Part shown: one piece after another, positions 40,115 through 42,554 of the stretch
Position numbering within the stretch: position 1 is the stretch's first letter
Layout: every line of letters begins with the position of its first letter
NCBI GenBank assembly: GCA_903840355.1
Contig: CAIMFJ010000007.1
Coordinates: 124,001-188,000 of the forward strand
Length of the DNA stretch: 64,000 nucleotides
Origin: an uncultured Opitutia bacterium
Lineage (GTDB): Bacteria > Verrucomicrobiota > Verrucomicrobiia > Opitutales > UBA953
Direction of reading: 5' to 3'
Program-made: the position numbers and the translations under genes
Notes under the pieces: generated by a model
Told to the model about the DNA's origin: nothing
The model's database searches: none
What the model saw: the letters and a program-made list of their open reading frames with translations, nothing else

Positions 40115-41092
40115 ATGGCTATCTACAAAAGCATTCTAGACACGGTTGGTCGCACTCCACTCGTTCGCTTGAACAAAGTGACCGAAGGTTCTCGTGCTGA
40201 AGTTTTGGTGAAGCTCGAATTTTTCAACCCGCTCTCGAGCGTGAAAGATCGTATCGGTCGCGCGATGGTTGAAGCCGCTGAACGCGATGGTCGCCTGAAG
40301 CCAGGTGGCACGATTGTTGAGCCCACGTCGGGCAACACGGGCATCGCCTTAGCCTTTGTGGCCGCAGCTCGTGGCTACCGTTGCATTTTGACGATGCCTG
40401 AGACGATGTCGATTGAGCGCCGCGTGTTGCTCCGTCTCTTGGGTGCCGAAATCGTTTTAACCCCTGGTGCCAAGGGCATGCGTGGTGCGATTGAACGTGC
40501 GACGCAAATTCGCGACGAACAAGGAGCGAATGCTTTCATGCCGATGCAGTTTGATAATCCGGCTAATCCAGAAGTGCATCGTCGCACGACTGCTGAAGAA
40601 ATTTGGGCCGACACCGAAGGTAACGTTGACGCGATTGTTTCCGGCGTAGGTACGGGTGGTACGATCACGGGCGTGGCTTCGGTCATCAAGAGCCGCAACG
40701 CTAAGTTCCGCGCCATTGCCGTGGAGCCTACGGCTTCCCCTGTGATCACCCAAACCATGGCCGGTCAGCCCGTGCAACCTGGTCCTCACAAGATCCAAGG
40801 CATCGGTGCTGGTTTCGTGCCCAAGAATTGCGATGTGTCGTTGATTGATGAAGTGGTGCAAGTGACGAACGAAGACGCTTTTGCTACGGCCCAAGATGTT
40901 TCGGTACGCGAAGGTTTGGCAGTCGGGATTTCTTCCGGCGCCAACATCTGGGCGGCCTTACAATTGGCCAAGCGTCCGGAGTACGCAGGTAAGCGCATCG
41001 TGACGATCGCTTGCAGCCCAAGCGAACGCTACCTCTCGACGGCCTTGGCTGAAAAGGTGCGTGCGGAAGTGACGGCTTTGACCGCTTCCTAA
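40115..41092 (+). CDS. cysK: Cysteine synthase A (O-acetylserine sulfhydrylase)
   Basis: A 325-aa pyridoxal-phosphate enzyme joining sulfide to O-acetylserine. The cofactor lysine is Lys44 in Ser-Ser-Val-Lys-Asp-Arg. The substrate loop Thr-Ser-Gly-Asn-Thr-Gly-Ile and the phosphate-binding Gly-Thr-Gly-Gly-Thr are intact. Length is normal. It uses the sulfide made by the CysI enzyme encoded 17 kb away. It is monocistronic, with a 90-base upstream gap that is AT-rich near the start, and an intrinsic terminator after it. CysM-type activity cannot be excluded. Confidence 0.96.
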
Positions 41093-41115
41093 GATTGCCC
41101 TCCAGTGGCGAAACG

Positions 41116-41141
41116 GGCGCTCTGCAAGGAGCGCCTTTTTT
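41116..41141 (+). terminator. Intrinsic terminator of cysK
   Basis: GGCGCTC (41116-41122), loop TGCAAG, GAGCGCC (41129-41135), then six T (41136-41141). Confidence 0.9.
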
Positions 41142-41201
41142 GTGCCTGTGATTCAAGCACTTAGGCTGCGGTGCAATTCGCTTGAAAGGGCGGGCAAGTA
41201 G

Positions 41202-41215
41202 TGAACACTTGTTCA
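41202..41215 (+). promoter_or_regulatory. LexA-like palindrome upstream of umuC
   Basis: TGAACACTTGTTCA: six-base arms TGAACA/TGTTCA with a 2-base centre, 46 bases before the umuC ATG. It fits GAAC-N4-GTTC, the core of the Gram-positive-type SOS box. The motif I recall for Verrucomicrobia, TGTTC-N4-GAACA, uses the same half-sites in the opposite order. Placement before a DNA-damage polymerase supports SOS control. Confidence 0.55.
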
Positions 41216-41261
41216 TATTACTCCCAATTCCTCTTGCTGCCTTTAACGACTTCCTGTGCCG

Positions 41262-42554
41262 ATGCTGCGCGCCCTTGCTGATTGTAATAATTTTTACGCG
41301 TCGTGTGAACGGGCCTTGAACCCTGCTTTACGTGGGGTGCCCATTGTTGTCCTGTCCAACAACGATGGCTGCGTCATCGCTCGTTCTGCTGAATCGAAGG
41401 CTTTGGGGATTCCCATGGGGGCGCCGTATTTTCAAGTACGCCGGGTTTGCGAAGCACACGGTGTAAAAGTTTTTTCGTCGAACTTCGCGGCCTACGGAGA
41501 TTTCTCCGCTCGCGTCATGGCGGTCCTGCAAGAGCAAGCTCGCGACTTGGAAGTGTATTCGGTCGACGAGGCGTTCTTGGGTTTTCCGGATATGCCCGAA
41601 GCCGATGCGGCCCTTTTAGGCCAACGGATTAAAGCTGCGGTGTGGGAGCAGACGGGCATCCCGATTTCTTTGGGCATGGGGCCGACGAAGGTTTGGTGCA
41701 AATTAGCGAATGAGTATGCTAAAAATCATCCCCACACGGGCGGAGTGTTTGTGGTGCCGTATGCAGAAGCCGCTCGTCTAGAATTTTTAAAACACGTCGC
41801 GGTCGAAGATTTATGGGGCGTGGGGGAGGGCTTAGGGGCTCGGTTGCGATCGCATGGAATGGTCCTGGCAAGTGATTTAGCGACGGCGGATCCCAGCTAT
41901 GTTCGAAAATTTGCCGGGGTGGTCGGCGAGCGTCTGGCCTTAGAGATTCGGGGGATTTCGTGTTACGAAGTGGATGAGAAACCTGTGACACGTCAGTCGA
42001 TTCTCGTGTCGCGTTCGTTTGGGCGTCCGGTGCAGGATTTGACGGATTTAACGGAAGCGATTGCCACACATGCGATGCGGGCGGCCGAAAAATTGCGCGA
42101 AGATCATTTAATGGCGAAAGCGATTGTGGTGATGTTGCGCACCAATCGTCATCGACAAGATCAGGCTCAATATCGCGCGGATGAAGTGGAAGTCTTGGAA
42201 ACTTATACCGATGATGCGCGGTTGCTATGTGCCGCCGCCACGCGGGCGTTAGAGCGGATTTATCGTCCCGGTTTTATTTATAAAAAAGCGGGCGTGTACT
42301 TGTCGGACATTCAAACCGCCCACACGGTACAACCCATTTTGCCGGGGCTAGGGACGACGCCAGAAGGTACTCGTCCTGGGCTGATGAAGGTGGTGGATCG
42401 GCTGAATGAGATGTTAGGTCCAGATACAATTCGCTTGGCTAGTACGGGCTTTGAACGTTCCTGGAAAGGGCAGTCAGCGCAACCCTCGAAGGCCACGTTG
42501 CCTTGGGCGAAACCAGCCGCTGGTCCGAAGTCGCGGCTACGTTTTCACGAATGA
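41262..42554 (+). CDS. umuC: Y-family DNA polymerase, UmuC type
   Basis: A 430-aa translesion polymerase from ATG 41262; an in-frame GTG lies six bases before. The catalytic motif Asp-Cys-Asn-Asn-Phe-Tyr-Ala-Ser-Cys-Glu is at the N terminus, with Ser-Asn-Asn-Asp-Gly-Cys-Val-Ile-Ala-Arg-Ser, Tyr-Ser-Val-Asp-Glu-Ala-Phe-Leu (catalytic Asp-Glu) and the helix-hairpin-helix region Asp-Leu-Trp-Gly-Val-Gly. The C-terminal half matches UmuC rather than DinB, with Ser-Phe-Gly-Arg-Pro and Tyr-Lys-Lys-Ala-Gly-Val. No umuD lies beside it; in E. coli UmuD' is needed for activity. A LexA-like palindrome sits upstream. Confidence 0.93.
   Translation: MLRALADCNNFYASCERALNPALRGVPIVVLSNNDGCVIARSAESKALGIPMGAPYFQVRRVCEAHGVKVFSSNFAAYGDFSARVMAVLQEQARDLEVYSVDEAFLGFPDMPEADAALLGQRIKAAVWEQTGIPISLGMGPTKVWCKLANEYAKNHPHTGGVFVVPYAEAARLEFLKHVAVEDLWGVGEGLGARLRSHGMVLASDLATADPSYVRKFAGVVGERLALEIRGISCYEVDEKPVTRQSILVSRSFGRPVQDLTDLTEAIATHAMRAAEKLREDHLMAKAIVVMLRTNRHRQDQAQYRADEVEVLETYTDDARLLCAAATRALERIYRPGFIYKKAGVYLSDIQTAHTVQPILPGLGTTPEGTRPGLMKVVDRLNEMLGPDTIRLASTGFERSWKGQSAQPSKATLPWAKPAAGPKSRLRFHE

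Follow-up and report, generated by a model that had tools for sequence, protein, structure and literature searches.

A putative LexA operator with GAAC-first half-sites upstream of umuC in a Verrucomicrobiota genome

LexA motifs differ widely among bacterial groups, and the motif of Verrucomicrobia is reportedly TGTTC-N4-GAACA, which Erill et al. are said to have described in 2016. LexA dimers bind palindromes at promoters, as a part of PMC8565304 describes, and LexA cleaves itself autocatalytically after damage, according to a part of PMC7739468. The LexA operator of B. subtilis and S. aureus is listed as CGAAC-N4-GTTCG in Table 1 of PMC9578287, and a model for the change of LexA motifs via duplication of lexA is given in section 20 of PMC8565304, which cites Erill 2016. 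Leaving Erill 2016 aside, no title among the literature matches listed indicated an earlier report of a GAAC-first motif in Opitutae.

The box upstream of umuC and its company in the genome

The window, by which we mean the whole stretch of 64,000 nucleotides that was analysed, is part of contig C7 of a 2.27-Mb genome. The original prediction was that a LexA-like box of GAAC-N4-GTTC geometry stands before umuC, and such a box is indeed present there. The features of this region are listed below.

40115-41092: cysK, upstream of the umuC promoter region
41115..41136, plus strand: terminator-like hairpin, 3' of cysK and before the umuC promoter region (1 found, 0.3 expected)
41182..41187, plus strand: possible -35 element TTGAAA, 20 bp 5' of the box, from sequence
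41199..41222, plus strand: extended block TAGTGAACACTTGTTCATATTACT, with 22/24 bases the same as in the genome's own recA operator region (pairwise comparison)
41202..41215, no strand assigned: box TGAACACTTGTTCA, palindrome GAAC-N4-GTTC, putative LexA operator (SOS box)
41262..42554, plus strand: umuC-type Y-family DNA polymerase, 430 aa from the ATG at 41262, without umuD in front

The gap between box and umuC is 46 bp when counted to the ATG at 41262, and the list of open reading frames also gives an alternative in-frame GTG start at 41256. The product of umuC carries the Pfam domains IMS, IMS_C and DUF4113, all above cut-off, while its best NCBIfam model, UmuC NF002955, scored 336.6 bits and stayed below its own cut-off of 431 bits. 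A umuD partner was not found in the window genome, where no S24 protein except LexA was detected. Apart from umuC there was no second match to a Y-family polymerase (IMS domain) in the genome, so there was no imuAB promoter to compare.

Counting analysis showed that the motif is not rare by itself. In the window, 2 sites of TGAAC-N4-GTTCA with at most one mismatch were counted where 1.61 were expected, a number reached by 50 of 100 shuffles. In the genome there were 42 sites of GAAC-N4-GTTC and 44 of the reversed control, and the 10-base form with at most one mismatch gave 53 sites against 42 in the control. Count alone therefore does not put the box above chance, and its significance lies in its position and its company. 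The exact TGAAC-N4-GTTCA occurs 7 times in the genome, of which 4 copies fall within ORFs (by crude ORF calling), and the only 3 exact sites outside ORFs stand directly 5' of lexA, recA and umuC. The box of recA is TGAACATTTGTTCA at C8:237947, and that of lexA is TGAACATCCGTTCA, whose end lies 2 bp before the ATG. So one and the same genome has GAAC-N4-GTTC upstream of lexA, of recA and of a translesion polymerase gene; by simple arithmetic, with uniform placement assumed, three specified promoters of 150 bp would receive 3 of 7 sites with a probability of about 3e-10. The original prediction had been staked on the recA and lexA promoters of this genome, and both of them carry the box. All three sites have T..A as their outer base pair, and the C..G pair of the Gram-positive type was found in none of them. 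The mirror motif TGTTC-N4-GAACA had 0 exact copies genome-wide and 23 one-mismatch sites against 33 in the control, and its best copy at lexA had 3 mismatches.

The likeness between the boxes of recA and umuC extends beyond the palindrome, and their common stretch is TAGTGAACAnTTGTTCATnTTACT, in which 22/24 bases are alike. A TTGACA stands 22 bp 5' of the genome's own lexA box, and a TTGAAG stands 21 bp 5' of the umuDC box in relative L263. Since TTGAAA, TTGACA and TTGAAG all sit 20-22 bp 5' of the boxes, the -10 region may lie under the box, in a pattern that is not uniform among relatives: a -35-like element is absent upstream of the box in relative L276. The recA promoter has its box upstream of a CTTGC element, unlike the layout at umuC and lexA. 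A generic promoter scan of 41080-41300 returned no promoter of the sigma-70 type.

Conservation in close relatives and the mirror motif in sister families

The LexA of the window genome is 74-83% identical to the LexAs of 42 loci (L022-L063). Their titles are mostly Opitutae, Opitutales, Opitutia, Opitutus or Verrucomicrobia(ota); L062 is titled Akkermansia muciniphila and was taken as a misnamed bin. We accordingly place the host in the phylum Verrucomicrobiota and the class Opitutae, and probably in the order Opitutales. The named close relatives are given our own working label f1, and the families compared with them are numbered from f2 onward. The search for recA covered 23 close relatives and one genome of the Akkermansiaceae, 24 genomes in all; relative G248 yielded no recA. 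The exact motif was present at recA of close relatives in 22/22 loci read, and the mirror motif within one mismatch in 0/22. At lexA, 40/40 relatives had the motif at one mismatch and 36/42 had the core GAAC-N4-GTTC; the short or edge loci L046, L059 and L061 were left out of the upstream count, and L067 was read for the core count only. A shuffled lexA upstream region of 126 bp has about 0.3% chance of a match with at most one mismatch. The lexA motif sits inside the block CTTGACAGTGAACAAgtTTTCATaGAACATcCGTTCACTATG (consensus of 41 sequences, including the window genome), in which two sites lie next to each other at a distance of 15 bp.

UmuC was present in 19/23 close relatives and in 0/15 other genomes searched (E 1e-40 or better), and the box stood before umuDC or umuC in all 19, of which 17 were exact and 2 had one mismatch. 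A umuD-like ORF lies between box and umuC in 12/19 relatives, as recognised by the pattern of its catalytic motif, and one of these 12 was confirmed by Pfam (S24). The box is directly 5' of umuC, as in the window, in 6/19 (L269, L272, L273, L274, L278 and L279). In L281 (1/19) the distance between box and umuC is compatible with umuD, the ORF itself not having been read.

Two genomes of the window's family, G146 and G172 (98% complete), gave no LexA match and no UmuC match. Their recA promoters (L216 and L215, respectively) had neither motif within one mismatch, which is as expected if the box serves LexA. This control is weak, because it has n=2 and because 5/8 fetched genomes of f3, f7 and f9 that do have LexA are likewise without a recA box.

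The clean motif at all three genes belongs to the window's close group, while sister families have it at lexA only and f2 is ambiguous. The GAAC-first motif within one mismatch was found at lexA in f2 (6/7), f5 (3/3) and f6 (2/2), all of the same order as the window. Three results speak against a clean picture. The recA promoters of f2, f5 and f6 had the GAAC-first motif within one mismatch in 0/8 fetched cases, with the left half GTGAACA kept in 8/8 and the right half different; lexA of f4, also of the same order, had it in 0/3; and 4/7 lexA loci of f2 match the mirror motif too, within one mismatch. The recA promoter set of 50 loci was compiled without L244, L245 and L251.

The original prediction set the box against TGTTC-N4-GAACA as the motif of Verrucomicrobium. 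That motif is present at lexA of further families from the window's order and class, so the interpretation as a mirror order stands for this phylum. With at most one mismatch it was found at 18/24 lexA loci, namely f3 (9/13), which belongs to the same order as the window, and f7 (4/4), f9 (2/2) and f11 (3/5), which belong to the same class; the 24 loci include the paralogues L118 and L241. Both registers are carried by 2/13 lexA loci of f3. Of 8 recA promoters fetched from f3, f7 and f9 genomes with LexA, 3 had the mirror motif within one mismatch, and one of these, G234, matches both motifs. The lexA loci of f8 and f12 (same class, one locus each) had neither motif, and the lexA loci of families of the phylum outside the class fitted neither; among the Akkermansiaceae, the lexA locus L064 has the mirror motif at 2 mismatches.

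Some other promoters had arrangements of their own. In the recA promoter of L210 (G207, f6), the site of the operator is taken by TGAACAAAAGAACA, a direct GAAC-N4-GAAC repeat that stands between both palindromic orders. The lexA promoter of L240 (G220, f3) carries TAGTGTTCATGAACACTA, with half-sites in mirror order and a spacer of just two bases. In f14, a distant family of the phylum, 4/7 recA promoters read have a weak one-mismatch TGAAC-N4-GTTCA, for example GGAACGGATGTTCA (L144 of G006, L145 of G205, L257 of G061 and L262 of G150). These f14 sites are possibly an independent case.

The LexA protein and a possible route of motif change

The LexA of the window genome matched TIGR00498 with 152 bits (cut-off 110.95) and has the LexA HTH domain PF01726 and the S24 domain PF00717. 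It is the single LexA detected in the genome, and no other S24 protein was found. Elsewhere, some f3 and f11 genomes have two or more LexA-like proteins, some of them very divergent; examples are L118 with L236 (G091), L201 with L241 (G099), G066 and G184. In a tree of 60 LexAs, the window's group together with f2, f4, f5 and f6 stood on one side of a branch with support 100/99, and the motif label changed once on the tree; labels were assigned by family, f4 included, 13 named close relatives were used, and L118 and L241 were among the rows. This tree has a long-branch warning for outside rows and contains no Gram-positive LexA. A tree without the DNA-binding domain gave the same split (83/99). 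The main f3 LexAs grouped with LexAs from other orders (90/93, not starred). Against a single LexA clade for the order, p-AU was 0.043 for the whole protein and 0.076 without the DNA-binding domain, which is marginal, and the tree is unrooted; the trees of the AU test were made without the paralogues L118 and L241.

Recognition-helix residues face the DNA in E. coli LexA. Inspection of this helix, which the original prediction had proposed, showed that the two groups of LexA differ at positions 40, 41 and 45. Here A-type means the LexAs of the window's clade, B-type means those of the mirror-motif families, and the numbering is that of E. coli; A-group rows were counted if longer than 200 residues, and the paralogues L118 and L241 were not counted. 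The helix of the window's clade reads S-T-N-A-V-F/M/V-G-H, and all 46 distinct A-type domains have T40, N41, V43 and G45. The 23 B-type domains have Q, P or S at 40, T or F at 41 (N in 2 of them), A (17) or V (6) at 43, and S, R, Q or N at 45. Positions 40, 41 and 45 thus split the 46 A-type from the 23 B-type domains almost completely. V43 and G45 presumably stand in B. subtilis LexA as well. Because positions 19, 24, 25, 28, 62 and 70 likewise separate both types, the helix is a likely but not the sole candidate for the motif difference.

The lexA promoters themselves suggest how the motif could flip, for some of them hold arrays in which both registers are present. An array was defined as three half-sites with at most one mismatch in all, and L118 and L241 were left out. 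GAAC-GTTC-GAAC arrays were present at lexA in 35/40 close relatives (0.000 in shuffles). The opposite phase, GTTC-GAAC-GTTC, was present in f3 (4/11), f7 (4/4) and f11 (2/5), again with 0.000 in shuffles, and an array of either phase was present in f3 (5/11), f7 (4/4), f11 (2/5) and f2 (1/7). In L200 and L201 of f3, both registers are perfect.

We therefore put forward, tentatively and at rather less than even chances, that the motif flipped by way of these half-sites arrayed in tandem at the lexA promoter: LexA, perhaps one of two duplicates, would have changed register and then taken over recA and umuDC. GAAC and GTTC half-sites that alternate about every 8 bp put both registers side by side, which would let LexA pass from one register to the other. 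Such arrays are common in close relatives and also occur in f3, f7 and f11, L200 and L201 have both registers perfect, and lexA of f2 has the two registers together with N4 spacing. In addition, the mirror motif occurs in f3, a family of the same order whose main LexAs go with LexAs from other orders, as they would after duplication and differential loss, or after transfer. On the other hand, the printed array spacings of the window's group leave N3, not N4, for an in-between mirror box; the array in the window genome appears at two mismatches only; and the lexA promoters of f4 and f5 have no half-site array. The AU test is marginal, the direction is unrooted, and the window genome keeps no duplicate lexA. 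A fuller version would give the order's ancestor a pair of LexAs that read the two registers of one lexA array; in the window's group the GAAC-first copy would have survived and the operators of recA and umuDC would have been rebuilt, and in f3 the mirror copy would have survived. We consider this version doubtful. If true, it would mean that a LexA motif has been fully inverted while the bridging arrays can still be seen on both sides, and that this took few changes in the helix (positions 40, 41, 43 and 45) that are partly convergent with Gram-positive LexA.

Explanations of the box and comparison with known systems

TGAACACTTGTTCA is very probably a LexA operator of the SOS response, because the same box stands at lexA, recA and umuC and is conserved in relatives. 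LexA dimers would bind TGAAC-N4-GTTCA and so shut off umuC. Upon DNA damage, RecA filaments would trigger self-cleavage of LexA, and umuC would then be expressed together with recA and lexA, which have this box too. The differences in the recognition helix would cause the difference in motif. We hold the LexA-operator explanation as a whole, including a LexA clade whose helix is distinct from that of the mirror-motif families, with high confidence.

The original prediction had also allowed for another regulator. Its site would then share its palindrome with Gram-positive LexA by coincidence. An identification by sequence leaves some room for this reading, but the box precedes lexA itself, recA and the umu genes in relatives as well as in the window genome, where the search for S24 proteins turned up LexA alone. 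Another regulator is therefore disfavoured, and we regard it as very improbable. A chance palindrome would agree with the frequency of the pattern in the window alone, which is at chance level. However, three SOS promoters of one genome share the motif and it is conserved across relatives, which leaves coincidence with a negligible probability.

The predicted LexA operator is ordinary in function, unusual for the phylum in the order of its half-sites, and part of a lineage-wide difference. One order holds two mirror motifs that have the same half-sites, with limited fixed differences in the DNA-binding domain and with promoters that carry both registers. The window's group is well suited to a study of how an SOS switch site changes, since the Gram-positive order is found here and the mirror order in cousins of the same order and class, and the route of the change is testable there.

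Compared with the operator of B. subtilis and S. aureus, the box has the same GAAC-N4-GTTC core, spacing and palindrome, and the window genome places this Gram-positive-like core before lexA, before recA and before a gene for a Y-family polymerase, but the outer pair is T..A here and C..G there. The host belongs to Verrucomicrobiota and its LexA groups with other Verrucomicrobiota LexAs (in a tree without Gram-positive LexA), so the likeness to the Gram-positive operator is taken as convergent. With the Verrucomicrobia motif TGTTC-N4-GAACA it shares the half-sites, the length of the spacer, the phylum, the lexA target and the tandem sites at lexA, whereas the order of the half-sites is reversed and the window genome has no exact copy of that motif. 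The duplication model agrees with the grouping of the main f3 LexAs with LexAs from other orders, on a marginal test and with transfer as an alternative. As in that model, the motif changed and the core genes remained the same. Unlike in the model, the order of the half-sites was exchanged, there are arrays with both registers, and the window genome is without a duplicate lexA. A change of motif through duplication of lexA has been published before, and the present case is a variant of this known phenomenon.
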